NCBI RefSeq assembly: GCF_000153485.2
Contig: NC_018721.1
Span: 3,410,001 to 3,474,000 of the forward strand
Direction of reading: 5' to 3'
DNA length: 64,000 nt
Source of the DNA: Psychroflexus torquis ATCC 700755
Lineage (GTDB): Bacteria > Bacteroidota > Bacteroidia > Flavobacteriales > Flavobacteriaceae
Part shown: positions 48,418 to 64,000 of the stretch, piece by piece
Layout: every line of letters begins with the position of its first letter
How positions within the stretch are numbered: position 1 is the stretch's first letter
Made by a program: the position numbers and the translations under genes
Notes under the pieces: generated by a model
Databases searched by the model: none
What the model was told of the DNA's origin: nothing
What the model saw: only the letters and a program-made list of their open reading frames with translations

Positions 48418-48435
48418 TTATGTTTGTTTTTACTT

Positions 48436-49095
48436 GTTGCCAATATTAACCCTGAAAATAACGGTATCTAAAGATAATAATTTTTTGGTCATTATTTCTT
48501 AGGGATTTTAAGGGTTGTTTTTTTACAAAGATTGGTTTTGAATGTGATTGATTTAAAAGTCTTAACATTAAAAACAGGCTTTAATAAATGGTGAAATCTC
48601 GAAGCTAATTAATCTCAATATTAGAATACACTCTATCATAAATATTTAAAGAAAAACCTCCAAATACTTATTAAAATACTGTATTACAAGTACTTAATAG
48701 CAAATCAATAGCTTATTAATGGCCTCCAATGGCTTATCAATTACCTTGGATTGGAAGACCAATGGGTATGCAAAACCCATTGGTTCACCCTTAGTTCCCA
48801 GCTGGTTAAGAAGTTGAACGTTTTCGTTTTACCTAGATAGGTAGAAGTAAAACATAACAAAAAGAAATTACCCTAAAAAGTACCTCGTTTAGATAACCAA
48901 CTGAAAAAAAAGGGATGCAAAGCACTCTAAAAACAACCTTCTCATCTTGTAAGGTTCTTGCCAACTCATCGAATTCCCCCTTATCTAAAAATCCTGGAAT
49001 CAGTCAATAAATCATATAGCGGACTCCACTGAGTCTGCTTGTCGTGCCTTATCAGGTAGGCCTGTCAAAGTATTCGCATATTCACACTCCATATG
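48436..49095 (-). repeat. Inter-cassette repeat, copy B (most complete)
   Basis: About 660 bp. It begins at GTTGCCAATATTAACCC like copy F and carries a 9-bp perfect hairpin (48759-48767 with 48775-48783). It also has the core cgttttacctagataggtag, the block aaccaactgaaaaaaaaggg and the end cactccatatgccaatttat. No open frame of note. Confidence 0.8.
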
Positions 49096-49109
49096 CCAAT
49101 TTATTAGCT

Positions 49110-50923: not shown

Positions 50924-50954
50924 TGTTATGTTTCTTCAAATAGGCTTCAACTTT

Positions 50955-51562
50955 CGGATAACACAACAAGTTGTGATATCCTCATTTTAGTGTTAGTATA
51001 AATTTAGTGATTATTTTATTATCTTGAAAGTTTTAACATTAAATACGGGCTTTAATAAACGGAGGAATCTCGGAGCTAATTAATCTCAAATCTTAATACT
51101 AGAATACACTCTATCATAAATATTTAAAGAAAAACCTCCAAACACTTATTAAAATTTTGTTTTACAAGTACTTAAAAGCAAATCAATAGCCTTCAATGGC
51201 TTATCAATTACCTCGGATTGGAAGACCAACGGGCATGCAAAGCCCATTGATTCATCCTTAGTTCCACGCTGGTTAAGAAGTTGAACGTTTTCGTTTTATC
51301 TAGATAGGTAGAAGTAAAACATAATAAAAAGAAATCACCCTAAAAAACACCTTTTTTAGATAACCAACCGAATAAAAGGGGATGTAAAGCACTTTATAAA
51401 CAAACGTCTCCTTTTGTAAGGTTCTTTCCAACTCCTAAAATTCCCCTTTACCAGCAATCCCGAGTCAGTCAATAAATCATATAGCTGACTCCACTGAGTC
51501 TTGCCTGTCGTGCCTTTGCAGGTAGAGCCTGTTGAAACGGTGGCCTATCGGCACTCCATATA
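50955..51562 (-). repeat. Inter-cassette repeat, copy C
   Basis: About 610 bp, closest to copy B. It opens with a hairpin GGATAACACAAC-AA-GTTGTGATATCC at 50957-50982. It then has the shared blocks aaatatttaaagaaaaacct, ttggaagaccaacgggcatg (hairpin at 51226-51250) and cgttttatctagataggtag. It ends at actccatatatttagttgtt. Confidence 0.8.
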
Positions 51563-51589
51563 TTTAGTTGTTGTGGCTGGTGTTTTTTA

Positions 51590-52138
51590 TCAATTCCCTG
51601 TTAATTTCAATTTCTTTTTTTCTAAATAAAAAATAATTAATGAAAATAGAATTTCTATGGTTCCACCAATCAATCCAATTATATGAAAGGGCAGGTTAAA
51701 AAGAAATCCTCCAAATCCTGATAAAATTAATGCTGCACCGAAAGCCCAATATATACGCATACCATAAATTGAGGAAAAGACTAAATAACGAGCTCCAATA
51801 GTTAATATCATTATTGGGAAAAACCAATTAGGACGGATTTGATACACAAAATAAGCTATGAATAGTCCAATAAATAACAAAAATGTACTTTCCAAAGCGA
51901 GGGATGATAATGGGTTTCCTGTTTTATGTTTTCCAGAGCGATTTAATCCTTTAGATAGTAGTATCCCTAATGGATGAATTAGCATTCCTCCAAAAAAGAA
52001 CACAAGTAGACTAATTTGTTCTGTACTCACTAATGCAGTAATTCCAGCTGTTAGCCATACAATACCAGATACAAGAGCGCCGGGACAACCCCCAAAATAG
52101 GATTTACACATATCTTCTTGTGCTTCTATAATATTCAT
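51590..52138 (-). CDS. Hypothetical polytopic membrane protein, 182 residues
   Basis: From the ATG at 52136-52138 it begins MNIIEAQEDMCKSYFGGCPG and has five or six membrane helices (LVSGIVWLTAGITALV, ISLLVFFFGGMLIHPLGILL, STFLLFIGLFIAYFVY, FFPIMILTIGARYLVF, IIGLIGGTIEILFSLIIF). It resembles small membrane families with conserved GGxPGxLVSGxVW and GGMLxHPLG motifs (possibly DUF7010), whose role is unknown. The earlier in-frame start falls in repeat-derived sequence. It is a single-gene cassette between repeat copies C and D. Confidence 0.75.
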   Translation of the reverse strand: MNIIEAQEDMCKSYFGGCPGALVSGIVWLTAGITALVSTEQISLLVFFFGGMLIHPLGILLSKGLNRSGKHKTGNPLSSLALESTFLLFIGLFIAYFVYQIRPNWFFPIMILTIGARYLVFSSIYGMRIYWAFGAALILSGFGGFLFNLPFHIIGLIGGTIEILFSLIIFYLEKKKLKLTGN

Positions 52139-52167: not shown

Positions 52168-52650
52168 CTTTGGCATAACACAACTTATTGTGTTATGCCC
52201 ATTTTCTTTATGATATAAATTTAGTGATTCTTTTATTATCATAAAAGTTTTAACATTAAAAGTATGCTTTAATAAACGGTGAAATCTTGGAGGTAATTGA
52301 TCGACCTCTTGAATCACAATAGTAGAGAACACTCTATCATAAATGCTTAAAGTATAATTTCTAAACACCTATTAAAATTCTGTTTTATAACCGCTAATAA
52401 GCAAATCAATAGCTGACTAATGGCCTGCAATGGTAATACAATCCCCTTGGATTAGAAGACCAACGAGTTTGCAAAACCGGATGGTTCACCTTTGGTTATG
52501 AAATTAAAGGTTTCTGTTTTGCCTAGATAGGTAGACGGGAAACACAACAAAAAAATTCAAAGAACGACAAATGCGAATCTCTAAGTCTAGACTACTAGTG
52601 TTTCAAAATCAAAGTATAAAAGAGTTCTTTTTACCTCAGTTCTTTGTTGC
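52168..52650 (-). repeat. Inter-cassette repeat, copy D
   Basis: It opens with a strong hairpin (GGCATAACACAA / TTGTGTTATGCC, 52170-52197), then the blocks taacattaaaa, aataaacggtgaaatctt, cctattaaaattctgttt, a weakened version of the central hairpin near 52462-52486 and the core ttttgcctagataggtag. It ends at acctcagttctttgttgcc, the end type of copies F, G and H. Confidence 0.75.
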
Positions 52651-52669
52651 CTGCTGGCTTTATTCATTT

Positions 52670-53209
52670 TTAAGCATATCCGTTTATATAAAGTTCCGAA
52701 TATGTCTTTTTTTTCAAATTCACTTTCAGATTGAAATAGCAGTTTCCACCGTCATTAACTTCCATAAGTTCTGATCTCCAATTCTCACTTCCCCAATCAT
52801 TGCAGAAAAAATTAATCCAAATCTCTTTTTGTCCCTTATCATTAATAATAGTAACATACTGTCGTTTGAATCCTTTTGTCTTCAATTCAAATCCTGTTTC
52901 TGTCCATCGATTGTTAGCATATATCGTATTATGCTTTTCAAGACTTTCACGTTGTTGTTCGTTATTTTCTTTTATGGCTTGTTCAATTATCTTTTCTACT
53001 TCGTTAAGTTCATTTTCTGATAGTGTGGTAAGTTCAGCATCCTTGAATATCCAATGCCAATCACTTTTATAGTCCAAAATCACATAGGTCGAGTCAGGAG
53101 TCTGGAAATGGGAGCTTACAATCTGCTTCTCAATAGTTTTGTCTGCTTGTTTTGTCTGCCCATTACAAGCAGTTAAAGAAATTATAAGTATTAACAATAA
53201 TTGTTTCAC
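52670..53209 (-). CDS. Hypothetical lipoprotein, 179 residues
   Basis: A lipoprotein signal ends in the lipobox SLTAC (Cys15). The mature part is hydrophilic with a long charged helix (TTLSENELNEVEKIIEQAIKENNEQQRE in two pieces) and a beta-rich C-terminus (KRQYVTIINDKGQKEIWINFFC). I recognise no family. It is a single-gene cassette between repeats D and E. Confidence 0.7.
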   Translation of the reverse strand: MKQLLLILIISLTACNGQTKQADKTIEKQIVSSHFQTPDSTYVILDYKSDWHWIFKDAELTTLSENELNEVEKIIEQAIKENNEQQRESLEKHNTIYANNRWTETGFELKTKGFKRQYVTIINDKGQKEIWINFFCNDWGSENWRSELMEVNDGGNCYFNLKVNLKKKTYSELYINGYA

Positions 53210-53227
53210 GGTGTTTTTTTCAAATGT

Positions 53228-53515
53228 TACACAACGTTTACCAGCTATGCATAGTACGGATCATTAGCTTTATTTGATTTTTCGAAGATAGTTAGAAGGA
53301 AAATACAAAAAAAGAATAACACTAAACAGCAACTTCTTCAGATGACCAACTGAAAAAAAAAGGGATACAAAGCTCTATAAAAACAGCCTTCTCCTTTTTT
53401 AAGGTTCTTGCCAACTCATCGAATTTTCCCTTGTTTGAAATTCCAGATCAGTCAACAAACCATATAGCGAACTCCACTGAGCATATCGAAGTGTTGGCCT
53501 ATCGGTACTCCATAT
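53228..53515 (-). repeat. Inter-cassette repeat, copy E (short)
   Basis: It begins with cacaacgtttaccagctatg-catagtacgg, which resembles the arm of the palindromic elements at 59-60 kb (caacggtctcggctatag-ttagtacggg). It then joins the second half of the long repeats (gaccaactgaaaaaaaaagg, ccttttttaaggttcttgcc, ggtactccatatgcttagtt). It therefore links the two repeat classes. It carries cactgagcatatcgaagtg, a relative of the repeat at 54944-54962. Confidence 0.7.
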
Positions 53516-53534
53516 GCTTAGTTATTGTAAAACG

Positions 53535-54104
53535 TTACTTTTCATTATTTAGTGGAAATGTAATTCCAACTGCAAAAGCTCCAACGAATTGTTTAACTGA
53601 TGGTTGAAAATAATAAGTAAATCCTAAATCAACATTATTATTCTTTCCTAATTCTAGTCCAATTGAAAAAGGGATGTGATAAATAATTCCGCCTTTATCA
53701 ATATTGTCAAAAGCTGTTAATGTTTCAAATTTTCCAATTGAAGTTCCTATTCCAATTTCAACGTATGGTGCAACCCAAGGAATTGGCGCACGAACTCTTG
53801 CTTTTCCTCCAAGTAAAAACGCTTTTGATTCGGCTTTTTCATTAGTCGGATTGTCATTTAAATCTTTTCCATTTGAACTTGTCAAAATAAAACCTGCGTA
53901 TGGTCTTAATTCAAACCAAGAAGCGACTTTTAATACTAGTTCTCCTTGTACATAAAAGCCATTATCAGCAATTTCGTCAATGCTATTGTATGGTACACTA
54001 ATACCATAACCAATTTGAGCATTTATTGATTTTTCTTTTATAAATTGAGCTTTAACTAAATTTGAAGTCAGAATTATAATGAATAATATCAGAGTTTTTT
54101 TCAT
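53535..54104 (-). CDS. Outer-membrane beta-barrel protein, 189 residues
   Basis: A signal peptide (1-19, SNLVKAQ) is followed by alternating strands (SINAQIGYGISVPYNS, GFYVQGELVLKVASWFELRPYAGFIL, LGGKARVRAPIPWVAPYVEIGIG, NVDLGFTYYFQPSVKQFVGAFAVGITFPL). This is typical of small 8-strand porin-like barrels in Bacteroidota. No specific function can be assigned. It is a cassette gene on the minus strand. Confidence 0.8.
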   Translation of the reverse strand: MKKTLILFIIILTSNLVKAQFIKEKSINAQIGYGISVPYNSIDEIADNGFYVQGELVLKVASWFELRPYAGFILTSSNGKDLNDNPTNEKAESKAFLLGGKARVRAPIPWVAPYVEIGIGTSIGKFETLTAFDNIDKGGIIYHIPFSIGLELGKNNNVDLGFTYYFQPSVKQFVGAFAVGITFPLNNEK

Positions 54105-54409: not shown

Positions 54410-54808
54410 TTAGAAAGGACTTTCCCCGTTATTTATTACAACCCTATAACCATCTAAGTCTTCAAAGGTTTGAGCACCACCTTCCCAATATGGATTAAAA
54501 GATTTAACTTTCTTAAAGCCAGAATTAGAAATTCTACTTATAGCGTTTTTGTATTCTGTTTCATTTGAAACATAAAAGATTAATAGATTTTCTAAAGAAG
54601 GCGCACGCCCAGCTTTTTCATTTGTATGTGTTGTAAATTCTAAATGATAATGATGTTTTGGGTGTCCAACCATTCTTCCACTAAAATTACTATGACCATC
54701 AAATCCACCAATCACCTCAAAGCCCAGTCCTTCAACATACATTTTTGTTATTTCTTCTAAATGATCAGTTGGTCTACCAACTCTCATCACTGTATCTCTT
54801 TTTATCAT
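54410..54808 (-). CDS. VOC family (glyoxalase-fold) protein
   Basis: A 132-residue protein with the paired beta-alpha-beta-beta-beta layout of the vicinal oxygen chelate superfamily: VGRPTDHLEEITKMYVEGLGFEVIGGF, the metal-side HYHLEFTTH, NLLIFYVSNETEYKNAI and a second-half FEDLDGYRVVINNG. His and Glu residues could bind a metal. Members include glyoxalases and antibiotic resistance proteins; the substrate is unknown. It is a single-gene cassette whose upstream flank abuts group II intron 1. Confidence 0.88.
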   Translation of the reverse strand: MIKRDTVMRVGRPTDHLEEITKMYVEGLGFEVIGGFDGHSNFSGRMVGHPKHHYHLEFTTHTNEKAGRAPSLENLLIFYVSNETEYKNAISRISNSGFKKVKSFNPYWEGGAQTFEDLDGYRVVINNGESPF

Positions 54809-54859: not shown

Positions 54860-56872
54860 GTAGAGTAGAGCCTGATTGCTTATCCAAAGTTGTCACTTTA
54901 AAAGTAACAAAATAAATAAACAATCAGCGCCCCCTTCATCAAACACTTCGACAGGCTCAGTGCAGCGCCGTGCATGAAGTTTTCCCTCACACAGCCTGCC
55001 CCGTTTTTGTCGGGGGCTTACCGATAGATTTCTTTATTGAGCTTTCGCAAGGGTTTTCAAACGTGCATACTTTTCTATGTCAAATAGGTTGTAAAATTTA
55101 ACCAAATTCTCATAGGGTCGCTGGCGTAGCTTCCGATGCGCTTTCCTTCCTTTGCACTTCATCCATTTAAATAATTTGTAATCCAGATGCTTTTTAATGA
55201 TTTTTATGGTTTCCCAAATATGTGTAACCTTACTGATAGAAAAGTAATTTAGCCAACCTCTTAATAATTGATTAACCTTCCATACTATCCACTCAATTGT
55301 CCAATGTTTTCGATTTGCAAATAGTTCTCGCAATTTTGAAAACAATTTAGACCGTGACTTCATACTGGGTCGTACATTGGTGTAATTCTTGGCATTCCAT
55401 CCAAATTTGGACTTTATACTTCTAAATTCAAACCCCAAAAAGAATAAACTGCTCTTGCTACTATGCAAAAGTTTTGTCTTTTCTTTATTTAACGTTAATC
55501 CCATATTATCCATTATACTAGTGATATAGTCCAGTATCTCTTTGCTGAAATACCATTTACCCATCAATAGAAAATCATCTGCATAACGAACTATGCGGAT
55601 GTTTGCCTTGGCAAACTTCCCCTTTGGATTGTTTACAATCTGGTCAAATGCATGGAGATATATGTTGGATAATAATGGCGAGATAACTCCCCCTTGTGGA
55701 CTTCCTTTGGTACTCGCTACTAGCTTTCCGTTGGGTAGCCGTACAGGCGCAGTTAACCATTGATGTATCAAACTTAAAATACTATGATCTACCAACCTTT
55801 TCTTTAGTAAAATAAATAATTTAGTATGCGGGATGGTGTCAAAATACTTCGACAAGTCCGCATCATAGACAAATTGATGCCTATCATAAATATTTTGTTT
55901 TACTTGCTTTATGGCGTCTTTTGCTCCTCGTTTGGGTCTAAATCCAAAAGAGGTATGCTCAAAATCTGCCTCCCAAAGTGGCTCTATTAGCATCTTTACT
56001 GCCATTTGAACCACGCGGTCGCGAATTGTTGGTATTCCTAATACCCTAAAATCTCCTTCCTTTTCCTTGGGGATGAGCTTTTGCTTTACTGCTTGGCTCC
56101 TGTAGGTGTGACCTTGTAAGTCTTGTTGAATCTCGCCAAGAAAAACAGATATTCCTTGCTTTTCAATAGCGTCAGAACTTTGATTGTCTACACCTACCCC
56201 TTTAGAATAGTTGCTCCTAACTCGTCGATAGGCTTCTATAAGCGTATGGTCTTCACAGAGTTTTCCGTAAAGACTATAAGCCTTGAAGCCCTTATCTTGC
56301 TTGGCTCTAATATATAGCTTCCTCTGAAAAACACGAATAGCTGCATCGCTTTGCGATGGACTTGTTAATAGATTTACATCAATACTTGTCATTATGTCTT
56401 TCATATAAGCATATCTAAAGTAGTGTCCCTTTCCTAATTAGAGTTTTGTTGTCTCTAACATCATAGGTACTATGAACACCTCCGACTTCTCTTGCTACAG
56501 CTAGTAATTTCGTAATACTTATGTACTAGCTTTTATAGTTGCCACCATTTGTAACAAGAGACCTCCCACGTTTCGTAGTTTTCCATCTATAACCACGCCA
56601 TCCCTATGACTCCGGTAGATTGTTACACTTCATACTACTGTTTATCCATGCAACATAACAGGGTTCAAGAACGTCGAAACTCTCCCCAATCTACAGATAC
56701 ACTTATCGAAGCTACTACGGGTTCACACTTGCGTATTACAGCTTGGTTATTTGAACATGCCCAGCTTCAGCGAAATCCTCACAAATTTAACTGTCGGCAG
56801 CTCTTCTAAATGAACAGCAAATTATTTAGGTAGGATTTACACCTACTGGAAAAACACAACTTCGTGGCGCAC
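54860..56872 (-). mobile_element. Group II intron 1 (about 2.0 kb, with maturase ORF)
   Basis: The 5' end is GTGCGCC at 56872-56866. The ribozyme part 56405-56866 contains the usual TTTCCAGTAGGTGTAAATCC stretch and no gene. The maturase gene follows. The 3' part holds a domain V-like hairpin (GCTGTGTGAGGGAAAACTTC... at about 54995-54965) and a domain VI ending ...CTCTAC at 54860. The domain V pairing is somewhat irregular (CAGGCTGTG / CACGGCGCTG), and a 19-bp repeat (54944-54962) sits between domains V and VI. Ends are certain to within a base or two. The 5' exon is the 12-bp CAACGTCTAGGC remnant of the palindromic element. Confidence 0.85.
55034..56404 (-). CDS. ltrA: Group II intron reverse transcriptase/maturase
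   Basis: A 456-residue intron-encoded protein. The reverse transcriptase domain spans about 60-300: IPTIRDRVVQMAVKMLIEPLWE, FGFRPKRGAKDAI, the first catalytic Asp in YDADLSKYFD, GSPQGGVISPLLSNIYLHAFD and RYADDFLLMG (YADD 274-277). The maturase domain X follows (LRGWLNYFSISKVTHIW). No HNH endonuclease motif is visible at the C-terminus. It helps the intron fold for splicing and copies it into new DNA sites. It belongs to the intron 54860-56872. Confidence 0.93.
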   Translation of the reverse strand: MKDIMTSIDVNLLTSPSQSDAAIRVFQRKLYIRAKQDKGFKAYSLYGKLCEDHTLIEAYRRVRSNYSKGVGVDNQSSDAIEKQGISVFLGEIQQDLQGHTYRSQAVKQKLIPKEKEGDFRVLGIPTIRDRVVQMAVKMLIEPLWEADFEHTSFGFRPKRGAKDAIKQVKQNIYDRHQFVYDADLSKYFDTIPHTKLFILLKKRLVDHSILSLIHQWLTAPVRLPNGKLVASTKGSPQGGVISPLLSNIYLHAFDQIVNNPKGKFAKANIRIVRYADDFLLMGKWYFSKEILDYITSIMDNMGLTLNKEKTKLLHSSKSSLFFLGFEFRSIKSKFGWNAKNYTNVRPSMKSRSKLFSKLRELFANRKHWTIEWIVWKVNQLLRGWLNYFSISKVTHIWETIKIIKKHLDYKLFKWMKCKGRKAHRKLRQRPYENLVKFYNLFDIEKYARLKTLAKAQ

Positions 56873-56884
56873 CAACGTCTAGGC

Positions 56885-58832
56885 ATCGAGTAGACAAGGG
56901 GAATTTCACCCCAAGCCTCTCACAGAACCGTGCTTGAAAGTCTCCCCTCACACGGCTCTTGTTGTACAAATCTAAGCGATAATGTTTATCTGAGAAAAGT
57001 TCCAATGGTAAAACAAAGTAGGAAATTGCTTTCTTACCGTTGCCAACCATTTGTACCCTTTCCTAATACTGGTTTTATAACGCTTATACCTTTTCCTTGC
57101 CCACCAAACTAATCGTTTACTTAGTAATCGAAAGACTTTTGTAAGTTCATACATCTTAAATTTACCATAGTAACGCACCCATCCCCTAATCATTGGATTA
57201 AGGTATTGTGCCACTCCTACAATGCTTTTAAACGTAAGTTTATTTACCTTGAGTTCTTCGAGCTTGTCTGCGATTCGTTTTCTTGAACTAATACTTATAG
57301 CACAATCATAACCTAAAAATAGCTTTCTCTTTTTCTTAGAATAAGCTGTTCTTGGTTGAAAAGAGTATCCCAAAAAATCAAATCTGACCATTGGGTGATT
57401 TTCTTTTCTTCTGTAATCTCGGCAATAGACAATTTTTGTCTTTTTAGGATGTAATTCTAATCCTACCGATTCCATTCTTTGATGTACTAATTGCAGTATT
57501 TGTTCCGCATGAGCTTTTGTATTACAGTGTAATATCACATCATCGGCATAACGAGTGAAAACTACATTTTTGTCTACCTTTTCCAACCATGTATCAAAAG
57601 CGTAATGCAGAAAAAGATTTGCCAGTAAGGGACTGATTACTCCGCCTTGTGGCGTTCCTTTTCCTTTCCTTTGGGTCAGTTTTCCAGACTTTGTAACAAC
57701 GGGTGCTTCCAGCCATCGTGTGATGTAGAGTTTAACCCAATTTTCAGGTACATGTTTCTCTACTGCAAGCATCAGTTTGTTATGGTCTATATTGTCAAAG
57801 AAACCTTTGATGTCTAAGTCAATTACCCAGTTTTTCTTCCAACAGTTCTCTCTTACCCTTGATAATGCTTGATGAGCACTTCTCTTTGGTCGATAGCCGT
57901 AAGAATTTGGACTGAATACTAACTCTAATCTTGGTTCAAAAAACATTTTAACCACCATTTGCCCTACTCTGTCACTAATAGTGGGTATACCCAATTTACG
58001 GATTGTACCGTCTTTCTTTGATATCTCTACTTCTTTGACAGGTGGGGGGAAATAACTCCCTGATGCCATCCGATTCCAAAGTTTGTAAAGGTGTTTACTG
58101 CGGTTGGCATCAAATTCTTGCATACCAATAGCATCTATTCCCGCACTTCCTTTGTTGGAACGCACTTTTTGATAAGCCTCCCAAACCATTAGGCGACTTA
58201 TCGGTATTGATTTTGTTTCATTCCATAAATTCATCCTCACATTTTGTAAGTTGATTCGTAAAATGCAACTGTACAACTTAACCCCTTTGCTCCAGTTTCA
58301 TTACAAAACCTTCTTCACTACTACGGATTAATCTGCCTCTGCTTATAACTTCGGTATTCTATCTCTCGATTGTTTCGATTGTATATTTCCCTTTGACTTG
58401 TAGCGAATCCTAATGCGGTAGCCTTACACAAGTCTATCATTCATAAGCAGTTTCCCAAGTTCCGTAAATAAGCCTGAATAAAGTTCTTGCCATCTGAATG
58501 ACGCCAGTCTTACAGAAAATAAATAGGTTATCTCTGTAATTAATAGTATCAATACTATTACTTTTCACTCCGTATCATACTTCGTAGCTTTTGACTGGAG
58601 GTTCCTACTTCTCGACACCTCTTCAATGGTTCACTTTAGTTCAACTCCTTTATTCGTACCTGCTAATCTCCAGGACTAGATTCTCCTAAACGCTCAATAC
58701 CAAGACTATTAATCAAAGCACCTTTAGGTGGTTTAAAGCCATCGCCTATACAACGACTCTGATGGACCTACCATCATCTTAATTACAGCATTCAACCATT
58801 TTATTTATTGCCATGGTTGATTCTTGGCACAC
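56885..58832 (-). mobile_element. Group II intron 2 (1.95 kb, with maturase ORF)
   Basis: The 5' end is GTGTGCC at 58832-58826. The ribozyme domains I-IV fill 58235-58826. Domain V is textbook: GAGCCGTGTGAGGGGAGACT, TTC, then AAGCACGGTTC (about 56967-56934). Domain VI follows (GAGGCTTGGGGTGAAATTCC, CCTTG) and the 3' end ...CTACTCGAT falls at 56885. It is inserted in the left arm of a palindromic inter-cassette element. Removing it restores the arm as seen in an intact copy at 60118. Confidence 0.92.
56972..58234 (-). CDS. ltrA: Group II intron reverse transcriptase/maturase
   Basis: From the ATG at 58232-58234 it has 420 residues, starting MNLWNETKSIPISRLMVWEA. The reverse transcriptase motifs are SDRVGQMVVKMFFEPRLE, YGYRPKRSAHQAL, VIDLDIKGFFDNIDH, GKGTPQGGVISPLLANLFLHY and RYADDVILH (YADD at 229-232 of this start). 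Domain X is LNPMIRGWVRYYGKFKMYEL. It lacks a clear HNH domain. It differs strongly from the neighbouring intron's protein, so the two introns are separate lineages, not a duplication. The gene ends inside domain IV/V of intron 56885-58832. Confidence 0.93.
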   Translation of the reverse strand: MNLWNETKSIPISRLMVWEAYQKVRSNKGSAGIDAIGMQEFDANRSKHLYKLWNRMASGSYFPPPVKEVEISKKDGTIRKLGIPTISDRVGQMVVKMFFEPRLELVFSPNSYGYRPKRSAHQALSRVRENCWKKNWVIDLDIKGFFDNIDHNKLMLAVEKHVPENWVKLYITRWLEAPVVTKSGKLTQRKGKGTPQGGVISPLLANLFLHYAFDTWLEKVDKNVVFTRYADDVILHCNTKAHAEQILQLVHQRMESVGLELHPKKTKIVYCRDYRRKENHPMVRFDFLGYSFQPRTAYSKKKRKLFLGYDCAISISSRKRIADKLEELKVNKLTFKSIVGVAQYLNPMIRGWVRYYGKFKMYELTKVFRLLSKRLVWWARKRYKRYKTSIRKGYKWLATVRKQFPTLFYHWNFSQINIIA

Positions 58833-59026
58833 TATGGTTAGTACGGGAATTAAAAGTAATAAACTTTCGATTAAGCACTTAGCCAAAACTTTTTATCTTG
58901 TTTTATCTTTTTTGTTCTAAAGCCAAATCAAAAGATTTGGCGGACTTCCTTAAAAGCGCTAAACTTTGGGTTAAGCACCAAAACCCGTATTAACTATAGC
59001 CATTGTTGTAGGTAGTTGTTTTTACG

Positions 59027-59437
59027 TTATATTCCGTCAAAGATTCCACCAATAAATTCTCCAATTCCTTCTAATAATCCGTCAAAAACGTCTCCAAAAT
59101 CTAACCAAGAAGCGTCAATATCTATATCGGGAATTTCAGTCCAATCCGCAGTGGAAGAAACAGATAATCCACTTAACATTTCAGTTTTCATTTCACCATA
59201 ATCACAAATTTCTCCTGTTTCTTCGTGATATTTGTCAAAATCCGAATGTGAAGAGAACGTACTCATTCCCCAACACGAGAAATTAAGTCCATCGTACCAT
59301 TTACTTTTTCTATGAGCCTTTCTTACTTCCTCAGGTTTATAATACTTTTTCTTTCCATTTTCATTAACTAATATTTTTCCTAAATCTGATATGTATTCTT
59401 TTTTATTAGTTGGTGCAGGAGCACAAGATTTTCCCAT
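59027..59437 (-). CDS. Hypothetical cassette protein, 136 residues
   Basis: No family recognised. The N-terminal half is basic (KKKYYKPEEVRKAHRKSKWYDGL) with cysteines at about 5, 55 and 78. The C-terminal half is acidic and glycine/aromatic-rich (DIDIDASWLDFGDVFDGLLE, then GIGEFIGGIFDGI). No signal peptide. It is the only gene in a 471-bp cassette bounded by GTTGTAGGTAGTT (59005-59017) and AATTACATACAAC (59467-59479), which are complementary in 11 of 13 positions. Confidence 0.6.
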   Translation of the reverse strand: MGKSCAPAPTNKKEYISDLGKILVNENGKKKYYKPEEVRKAHRKSKWYDGLNFSCWGMSTFSSHSDFDKYHEETGEICDYGEMKTEMLSGLSVSSTADWTEIPDIDIDASWLDFGDVFDGLLEGIGEFIGGIFDGI

Positions 59438-59475: not shown

Positions 59476-59604
59476 CAACGGTTCGCGCATAACAAAAGTG
59501 GCGACTTAAAATGAGCAAGTTTTTCGGTTAAGGTTTTACTTTTATAAAAATGCACAAAACTCCAGTTTCAGTACAAATCCCGCCATTTTTGTTATGCGCT
59601 GTTG
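59476..59604. repeat. Palindromic attC-like element 2
   Basis: 129 bp. The left arm CAACGGTTCGCGCATAACAA-AAGTGGCG and the right arm CGCCATTTTTGTTATGCGCT-GTTG are inverted repeats, with an asymmetric bulge (GGTTC against A) just inside the terminal CAAC/GTTG. The terminal CAACGG and GTTG and the bulge position agree with elements 1 and 3, although the stem sequence differs, so the shape rather than the sequence is conserved. Confidence 0.75.
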
Positions 59605-60057: not shown

Positions 60058-60117
60058 TTTTTTTTTGCTATGTTTTAATCTTTAAAGTATCATTTTTCTG
60101 GGCGGTTCGAAACTACA

Positions 60118-60310
60118 GCCAACGGTCTCGGCTATAGTTAGTACGGGATTAAAAGAAAATAAATTTTCGATTAAGCACTTAGCCAAAACTTTTTATTTTG
60201 TTTTATCTTTTTATTTCTAAAGCCAAATCAAAAGATTTGGCGGACTTGGTTTAAAACTCCAAACTTTGGGTTAAGCACCAAAACCCGTATTAATTATAGC
60301 CATTGTTGGC
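60118..60310. repeat. Palindromic attC-like element 3 (intact reference copy)
   Basis: 193 bp. The left arm GCCAACGGTCTCGGCTATAG-TTAGTACGGG and right arm CCCGTATTAATTATAGCCAT-TGTTGGC pair with a bulge GGTCTC against AAT. It contains the same two internal direct repeats and ccaaatc-aaaa-gatttgg hairpin as element 1. It is uninterrupted and so serves as the reference for the intron insertions. Confidence 0.85.
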
Positions 60311-60369
60311 AATAGTATTTATTATTCTTAATTTCTCTTCAGAATACTATTTTTTAGATATATTGTTAG

Positions 60370-62980: not shown

Positions 62981-64000
62981 GGGCTTGCTGATTTACTCAA
63001 GCTTATTTTAGTTCAAGAGGTATGTAATTTTGAATAAAAAAGGGTTTAGTGACATCAGTATTATAGAAACACCCTTTTATTTTGGGATTTAGCTTAGCGT
63101 ATATCCAATTTTCAAATAAGGCACAAAAAATAGCATATTTATCTGCTATTTTTGATAAGTTTATTAAGTTCATTATGAAGAAAATGGCACTAATCCAGCT
63201 TTCTGATGTGTCTTTCCTTTTAGCTTTTATTTTGCTAAGTCCGTATGCGTTTTTTGCTTGTCCAAACTTTCCTTCTATTAGGTTTCTTTGGTTTCGCTCT
63301 TTTTTGAGTTTTCGCTTTTGATAGGCAGAAAGTTCTTGTTTTGGCGGTCTCCCTAATGGTTTTCCTACAATTCTAATCCCTTTTTCTTTGAGCCATTTTC
63401 TGTTCTCTCTGTTAAGGTATATTTGGTCTGCCAGTAGTAATTCTGGGTAGTGACCAAAGGTGATTCTGTAGGATTCTACTTGTAATACTAAATCTTTAGA
63501 TTCATTAAATTGATCCCAACTTATATGTTCTACTCTACTCATTCCATCTATCTCACTAGCACTAATCTTTGCTCCAAATTCTGTCGATACTTTATCCTTT
63601 CCTCTTGGGATAGGGCGAACGTAAGGTTGATAAATATTGACTATTCTATTTTTTACACTATTAACTTTTTCGTGATACATATAGTTTTGTTGTTCATAGA
63701 TGAGTTGAAGCACCCAGTAAATCTTTTGGTCCCGTTTTGGTAAAGGGAATTTACAGGGATAAGCAGTTCTAAGATCTGTAAACATGCCAGGCAAGTGTTC
63801 CTCCTTTTTTTGATCTTCTATTTGGTCTAACAGTTTTTCAATATAAGATAGGTTACGCCTGGTATATCCTAGTTGTTTTCGAATGAACTTGTTTATTTGT
63901 TTGGTTGTCTTTCTGCGTTTTTTAGAAAATACAAGATATTCTGTTCTTGCTACTCGACGGTAATCTCGAGGTTTATTAACTCCTTGGGTTTGCTCGTAAA
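62981..64000 (-). mobile_element. IS1182-like insertion sequence, right part outside the window
   Basis: The element's end GGGCTTGCTGATTTACTC begins at 62981, 22 bp from the transposase stop, and interrupts the AraC-type gene. The GGGCTTGCTGA end resembles IS1182-family ends in Bacteroidota. The other end lies beyond position 64000, so the target duplication cannot be checked. Confidence 0.75.
63003..64000 (-). CDS. IS1182-like DDE transposase (5' end beyond window)
   Basis: The frame is open from the window edge (YEQTQGVNKPRDYRRVARTE...) to the TAA at 63003, with at least 330 codons. It shows KKRRKTTKQINKFIRKQLGY, the central DxxS-free KVSTEFGAKISASEIDGM block, LLADQIYLNRENRKWLKEKG with the second Asp, and the DDE glutamate in RNLIEGKFGQAKNAYGLSKI. 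There is no internal stop in the visible part, so it may be active. It belongs to the IS1182/IS5-like group. Confidence 0.85.
   Translation of the reverse strand, partial: YEQTQGVNKPRDYRRVARTEYLVFSKKRRKTTKQINKFIRKQLGYTRRNLSYIEKLLDQIEDQKKEEHLPGMFTDLRTAYPCKFPLPKRDQKIYWVLQLIYEQQNYMYHEKVNSVKNRIVNIYQPYVRPIPRGKDKVSTEFGAKISASEIDGMSRVEHISWDQFNESKDLVLQVESYRITFGHYPELLLADQIYLNRENRKWLKEKGIRIVGKPLGRPPKQELSAYQKRKLKKERNQRNLIEGKFGQAKNAYGLSKIKAKRKDTSESWISAIFFIMNLINLSKIADKYAIFCALFENWIYAKLNPKIKGCFYNTDVTKPFFIQNYIPLELK

Follow-up and report, generated by a model that had tools for sequence, protein, structure and literature searches.

A DNA stem-loop target has been described as exclusive to class C (IIC) group II introns (PMC10190682), and all lineages other than class C have been described as habitually homing (PMC4424553). 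IIC introns of the IIC-attC type sit in the bottom strand of the integron attC site, opposite to the cassettes (PMC7923331), and complete integrons are reported to be very rare in the group that includes the host studied here (PMC9024848). RmInt1 and RmInt2, in turn, belong to IIB3 or class D (PMC5894124), an assignment that is also drawn from PMC3552965. Here we describe a locus of Psychroflexus torquis ATCC 700755 in which two different group II introns, 12 bp apart, split one attC-like hairpin element. The locus lies in a window of 64,000 nt (NC_018721.1, positions 3,410,001–3,474,000), and its gene sense is the minus strand, on which all features below lie unless stated otherwise; plain coordinates refer to the window and values in kb to the surveyed genome, a single contig of 4.32 Mb. 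We consider it probable that two mobile retroelement lineages, both outside IIC, have each adapted to a different short stretch of one attC-like hairpin family. A literature search that left most subscription journals outside its reach returned no account of this case and none of group II introns in Psychroflexus.

Intron 2 (56885–58832, 1948 nt) starts with GTGTG at 58832 and ends with CTCGAT at 56885, and intron 1 (54860–56872, 2013 nt) runs from GTGCG at 56872 to CTCTAC at 54860, exactly as proposed in a preliminary description of this DNA. The boundaries rest on copy comparison, which was judged better than folding: five copies of intron 2 that bear an open reading frame (ORF) (window, 1556, 2934, 3739 and 4230 kb) and six copies of intron 1 from two genomes (window, 2060 kb, 3157 kb with a frameshift, 4313 kb with an internal deletion, one across the contig ends, and one in Psychroflexus gondwanensis) diverge at these ends. 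The element that they cut retains its 5′ arm, variable middle and inner 3′ arm at 58833–59009, with an R″-like ACAAC at 59005–59009, and its outer 3′ arm with the R′-like box forms the 12-bp exon GCCTAGACGTTG (56873–56884) between the introns. Removal of intron 2 completes the arm as CCCGTACTAACCATA+GCCTAGACGTTG. Compared by eye, this arm and the intact element of the same type at 60120–60307 are two substitutions and one missing base apart; the reported rebuilding of an intact-like arm is thus reproduced. Both ORFs encode group II reverse transcriptase (RT)/maturases, of 456 aa in intron 1 (55034–56404) and 434 aa in intron 2 (56972–58276), which score 348.6 and 404.8 bits against TIGR04416 (cut-off 300 bits) and share 34% identity, in agreement with the earlier view that they are clearly different. 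The profile search gave RVT_1 and GIIM in each maturase and no other domain, so that no endonuclease domain was found in either. Intron 2 also matches RF00029 (domain V/VI, 64.7 bits) and the D1 family RF01999 (102.2 bits); it is a group II intron by its GTGYG 5′ end, domain V/VI, D1 and RT/maturase, and intron 1 is one by its GTGYG 5′ end and RT/maturase.

The canonical 5′ ends, the maturases and the domain V/VI of intron 2 stand as previously claimed, and the canonical domain V/VI of intron 1 does not. The window copy of intron 1 is missed by Rfam at the gathering score and reaches 18.5 bits with RF00029 (gathering 40), because two inserts (55015–54995 and 54967–54944) interrupt its domain V region (54939–55019). 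The inserts split domain V on both strands and face each other across the helix. The relatives in P. gondwanensis, Cellulophaga and a Flavobacteriales metagenome-assembled genome (MAG), which lack the inserts (checked directly in P. gondwanensis and judged from the printed 3′ tails in the other two), score 45–46 bits with RF00029 and also reach the gathering score of RF02003. Four copies carry both inserts (window, 2060 kb, 4313 kb and contig ends), the 3157 kb copy carries one, and the P. gondwanensis copy none. Three of the copies with both inserts (window, 2060 kb and contig ends) are 99.1–99.4% alike and lie at different sites, as if the insert-altered intron 1 had moved.

A maturase phylogeny, which the preliminary description had proposed, separates the two introns into distinct clades that both lie outside IIC. 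In the maximum-likelihood tree of 34 rows, the IIC references from Eubacterium rectale (7uim) and GsI (6ar1) form a clade with support of 100/99 that contains neither maturase. The maturase of intron 2 falls into a 100/100 clade with proteins of Sinorhizobium meliloti and S. fredii. The S. meliloti protein is 419 aa long, and RF01999 detects its locus at 123 bits; it is presumably RmInt1 or RmInt2. By this clade with RmInt1-type proteins, intron 2 is assigned as a putative class-D-type (IIB3-like) intron. The maturase of intron 1 belongs to a 98/98 clade with plasmid proteins of Escherichia coli, Enterococcus and Rhizobium leguminosarum, and the D1 family RF02003 is common to the relatives of intron 1 and the loci of those plasmid proteins. 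Close maturase relatives are rare: 2 of 397 family genomes hold one of intron 1 (E ≤ 1e-60) and 12 of 397 one of intron 2 (E ≤ 1e-90), the host genome being counted in both.

The target of the introns is a hairpin family. The region 60105–60320, which encloses the intact element, folds with z = −4.47, and none of 200 shuffles is as stable. A similarity search with the intact element returns 28 matches in the same genome, some of them partial; no wider count is given, because palindrome scans recovered the intact elements but proved too strict or too noisy, with equal match numbers elsewhere for reversed sequence. From several genomes, 27 different elements were assembled (28 rows, with the window element entered twice, and with AAC and GTT among the selection criteria). 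A second intact element, of 128 nt, lies in the window at 59476–59603. An alignment of the 16 elements of 130–137 nt, with other lengths and two near-duplicates left out, shows that AACA, CGTT and an A·C pair (columns 22 and 114) are invariant in all 16 and that the helix L comprises 16 bp. Changes on both sides of the helix fill 67 cells compared with 24.5 in shuffles, and the covariation is 0.489 compared with 0.143 (sd 0.022) in shuffled alignments (0 of 500 as high) and at most 0.084 in slid ones. Because pairing was one ground for choosing the aligned elements and a few of them are closely related, their paired percentage and the comparison with shuffles look better than they should; this applies less to the slid alignments and to the invariant A·C mismatch. 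For 24 of the 27 elements the better fold is that of the strand opposite the genes (p = 5e-5, with some elements closely related), on which the A·C of the gene strand reads T·G. Of 14 sites in sense orientation, 12 have a frame on the same strand that ends no more than 260 nt upstream, and 11 have one that starts no more than 113 nt downstream.

These features correspond to an attC site in outline. However, the RYYYAAC box (R″) occurs in none of the 27 elements and GTTRRRY (R′) in one (GTTR is present in all, GTT being preselected), and none of 60 genomes holds an IntI above the TIGR02249 cut-off, below which 14 control genomes also fall, so the sensitivity of that search is not demonstrated. 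The description of the element as attC-like therefore holds for the covariation, the strand bias and the same-sense genes on both sides, and fails for the canonical boxes and for an IntI above the cut-off. The element resembles an attC without being a canonical one, and with neither the boxes nor an IntI above the cut-off we do not claim membership in integrons. The best match to the IntI profile in the P. torquis genome, far below the cut-off, is a 382-aa tyrosine recombinase (G000:C1:3774781-3775596), which also occurs in P. gondwanensis (G022:C5:943-1758).

Nine insertion sites of intron 1 were compared from five genomes, of which five lie in the P. torquis genome and one each in P. gondwanensis, Flavivirga, the Flavobacteriales MAG and Cellulophaga; relatives without a 5′ end were excluded (L142 and two truncated ones in genome G434). 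The 5′ junction reads CGTTG at six of the readable sites, CGTTA at two and CGCTG at one, and the target can be written as ACGTT[GA]/. The candidate exon-binding site 1 (EBS1) CGACGT, at 56671–56676, pairs in all six positions with the intron-binding site 1 (IBS1) ACGTTG. The first base of EBS1 tracks the last base of the target: C stands with G in the window and P. gondwanensis, U with A in Flavivirga and Cellulophaga, and the MAG copy has a G-U pair there (U in the intron, G in the target). No conserved IBS2 was found across the nine sites. Arm pairing, scored with an AAC...GTT template at the eight sites that no contig end cuts, exceeds that at 247 other CGTT[GA] places (Mann-Whitney p = 0.0018). 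The template and genomic controls replaced a comparison of 40-nt arms with shuffled flanks, in which short hairpins fold within the arm.

Intron 2 belongs to a larger family. RF01999 detects 21 introns in the P. torquis genome, from which the more distant one at 2568 kb (protein 52% identical) was left out to give 20 copies. An ORF match coincides with only 6 of the 21, in an ORF search that scored 11 of 17 candidates, and most others thus look ORF-less. Nine short relatives (L152, L153, L158, L159, L161, L162, L164, L165 and L167), 691–1067 nt from end to end, occupy the same position of the element; they are too short for an ORF and would need a maturase in trans. The 3′ end was not found in the copies at 2952 and 1554 kb, and those at 2994 and 1561 kb contain more than 1 kb of extra sequence. 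The 5′ exon ends with YCATA or TCTTA in 19 of the 20 copies. In a set of 18 sites, positions −4 (C), −2 (T) and −1 (A) do not vary, and CNCWAC at −14 to −9 is nearly invariant. Of the 3′ exons, 18 are readable, and in 15 of these CGTT follows at +8 or +9, compared with 2.4% following the window's 339 YCATA words. The genome contains no match to a strict single-motif pattern for this target, as the empty sites vary. The candidate EBS1 TATGAT (58574–58579) pairs in five or six of six positions with ACCATA, ATCATA, TTCATA and GCCATA, and the candidate EBS2 AGTAGG (58604–58609), in a hairpin loop, is complementary to CCTACT at −13 to −8 of some sites; taken together, these candidates fit in five or six of six positions at several sites and poorly at others. 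Relatives in G304 and G430, which are of other genera, and whose proteins are 73% identical to that of intron 2, use the same two junctions and conserve the EBS1 loop. Seemingly tandem introns, with CTCGAC or CTCGAT followed by GTGTG, were seen around 1627 in L127 and upstream of the ORF in L088, L042 and L115.

More distant relatives of intron 2 (44–46% identity), in other Psychroflexus and Flavobacteriaceae (G010, G036, G026, G157 and others), use a third position, on the opposite strand and beyond the hairpin. At 19 of 20 such sites, the last GTT, sought only at −18 to −6, starts 13 nt (14 sites) or 14 nt (5 sites) before the insertion. The hairpin exceeds the 95% control level at 14 of the 19 sites tested (p = 2e-7); the other five, without a clear hairpin, keep the GTT. 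In seven of these relatives the EBS2 loop reads ACAAC, ATAAC or GTGAC and pairs, by eye, with the R box of its own target completely in three, in four of five bases in two and in three of five in two, so that normal pairing of EBS2 with IBS2 can account for the fixed distance of the GTT. Among the 18 rows with a readable 3′ side, 9 have the stop codon of a frame in the opposite orientation 0–11 nt from the insertion.

The claim that two lineages target the same palindromic arm has thus gained further copies at the same two points, in other elements and in this and other genomes. The joint occupation of one element is no surprise in itself: with 20 and 5 copies and an assumed 100–300 usable elements, the chance of at least one shared element was calculated by hand as approximately 0.7 to 0.3. 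What chance does not supply is that both lineages use the element. In the mechanism that we propose, a strand-asymmetric, attC-like hairpin family between genes of Flavobacteriaceae would offer two stretches on the same strand. EBS1 of intron 1 would pair with the R′-like box ACGTT[GA] and the intron would enter right behind the box, while EBS1 and perhaps EBS2 of intron 2 would pair with the L′ arm (CNCWAC...YCATA) and place the insertion approximately 12 nt earlier. Each intron ribonucleoprotein may read exposed hairpin bases by EBS pairing and reverse-splice into probably single-stranded DNA; introns without an endonuclease are held to prime from replication forks (PMC4424553). An intergenic hairpin should tolerate an insertion with little damage, and splicing would restore the transcript because both introns lie in the sense of transcription, with predicted exon joins ...CCATAGCCTAG... 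and ...ACGTTGCCGTTC....

Intron 1 probably arrived first and intron 2 later in the split element, to judge from the sequences: intron 2 differs from the 1556 kb copy at 1 of 1948 positions and intron 1 from its nearest copy at 13 of 2013, and a prior intron 2 would have broken the hairpin of intron 1.

Several observations weigh against this proposal. In a test of 22-nt arms, only 5 of 18 intron 2 sites exceed the 95% level. With the AAC...GTT template, 3 of the 8 intron 1 sites exceed the 95% control level, and the 4313 kb and Flavivirga sites score like chance. The 20th copy of the intron 2 type (2923 kb) follows AGTCTA and its start has decayed to GTGTA; neither this copy (CGATA) nor that at 1850 kb (CATTC) has CGTT where it is expected. 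Intron 2 copies in the window and at 2934 and 1556 kb occupy elements of a related sub-type and are not fully independent. The class D assignment is derived from the literature and from an S. meliloti protein whose host and length, rather than its name, make it RmInt1-like, and the clade of intron 1 holds no named class anchor. The interrupted domain V of intron 1 may prevent splicing. Finally, the intron 2 copy at 4230 kb lies inside a protein frame that stays open over the 314 codons before the junction and continues in phase after it, without an element and with the target CCTACATTTCATA. The preliminary description had regarded copies in unrelated sites as evidence against a shared target; one of the five ORF-bearing copies of intron 2 is in such a site, and the other four are not. 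This copy shows that the element is preferred but not required and that sequence alone can suffice for intron 2.

The 4230 kb copy, with its matching target, also speaks for a narrower version of this proposal, to which we assign somewhat less than an even chance: pure sequence homing, in which only IBS1 and IBS2 are read and the hairpin is irrelevant except as a carrier of a multi-copy target, the part that insertion sequences play for RmInt1 and RmInt2. The opposite-strand sites that keep the GTT at its fixed distance without a hairpin above the 95% level (5 of 19) and the EBS candidates that track their own targets in several cases agree with it, as does the behaviour of class D introns, which home into insertion sequence (IS) elements; ISRm17, for example, receives RmInt2 in its inverted repeats (PMC5894124). 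However, the recognised specificity of intron 1 amounts to approximately six bases with no conserved IBS2, too little by itself to put every copy into elements of a 4.3-Mb genome; so short an IBS1 argues for some further requirement. Alternatively, the palindromes might be transcription terminators or repetitive extragenic palindromic (REP)-like repeats, used in the way that IIC introns use terminators. The elements do lie shortly behind stop codons and ahead of the next gene, but long AT-rich stems, an invariant A·C pair and a strand bias are not features of terminators, and the alignment, which is what was consulted rather than a scan aimed at terminators, contains no conserved T-run at the 3′ end of the element. 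We regard this explanation as rather unlikely.

Carriage of the introns with duplicated or recombining elements, in place of independent insertion, would account for the likeness of the five ORF-bearing intron 2 copies (96.7–99.9%), for the repetition of the elements and for the related elements around the window, 2934 and 1556 kb copies. It was dropped as very improbable, because the flanking genes differ, other copies sit in quite different arms (GCCCTACTTGCCATA, GCAACAAACCATA and CCAACTGCTCATA), and the likeness ends at the intron ends, with no long identical flanks evident in 260 nt per side. We likewise abandoned, as hardly tenable, the analogy drawn in the preliminary description, by which an ordinary integron array would hold IIC-attC introns. 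In its favour, the maturases have no recognised endonuclease domain, the insertions lie in an attC-like hairpin, and such introns are known from clusters of attC sites lacking integrases (CALINs) (PMC7923331); against it, both maturases lie outside the IIC clade, the attC boxes fail and the 60 genomes yield no IntI above the cut-off. Class C introns of this type enter the bottom strand of attC, against the direction of the cassettes, at TTGT/T; both introns here follow the gene sense and use ACGTT[GA]/ (intron 1) and YCATA/ (intron 2). A broader reading than the adaptation of two lineages to one hairpin family can be offered tentatively, with slightly less confidence than pure sequence homing: the element would be an undescribed, strand-asymmetric attC-like recombination site of Flavobacteriaceae without an integron integrase, which several unrelated non-IIC lineages use as a landing place at three constant positions. 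Intron 1 would enter behind the R′ box, the intron 2 family within the L′ arm, and the opposite-strand relatives of intron 2 at 13–14 nt from where the R box starts.

The genes flanking the split element have the same sense as both introns. The upstream gene (59027–59437, 136 aa) matches no family, and a search of 118 other genomes at E ≤ 1e-10 gave no homologue. The downstream gene (54410–54808, 132 aa) is glyoxalase/YycE-like by family match and has one homologue in the 118 other genomes at E ≤ 1e-30, which is 81% identical and beside which no element is visible. Elsewhere in the window, an intergenic sequence of approximately 300–650 bp, recognised by eye, is repeated between same-strand genes at 48420–49100, 50924–51590, 52184–52670 and 53210–53535; it is bounded by CAAC/GTTG-like words and is possibly a longer relative of the elements. 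An ORF of 263 aa at 63003–63794 encodes an IS5-type transposase that scores 147 bits against a cut-off of 275 and is probably partial.

Hairpin preference has so far been credited mainly to another intron class, and the shared-target claim is broader than first stated. If two non-IIC lineages do insert repeatedly in attC-like hairpins, then either hairpin targeting arose more than once or sequence homing can converge on hairpins, as these are safe sites present in many copies. Since EBS loops and targets match, the role of the hairpin is testable. If the hairpins are recombination sites, the integron concept would gain a group from which complete integrons are reported only very rarely.

Among the systems described, the IIC-attC introns (class C; S.ma.I2 and relatives) resemble this case in lacking an endonuclease domain, in inserting into attC hairpins and in occurring also in arrays without an integrase (PMC7923331); the introns described here differ from them in class, in strand and in target. 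Compared with the integron attC sites and CALINs, the element shares R- and L-like boxes, a variable middle, a better folding opposite strand and same-sense genes on both sides, and differs in the boxes, in the lack of an IntI above the cut-off and in a 16-bp L helix with an invariant A·C. The RmInt1 and RmInt2 introns of S. meliloti are akin to intron 2 in maturase clade and D1 family, and RmInt2 uses the inverted repeats of an IS element (PMC5894124), whereas the target of intron 2 is an attC-like hairpin between genes. A parallel in setting is provided by IIB introns of halophile integron arrays (UHB.I2 of class CL1, and H.ha.F1 and H.ha.F2 of class E), which are non-IIC and lie beside attC sites, with UHB.I2 oriented like the cassettes (PMC7923331). 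Those introns are single or truncated; in contrast, a family of 20 copies and a second lineage repeat two positions in the attC-like elements described here, and relatives of intron 2 use a third position on the opposite strand.

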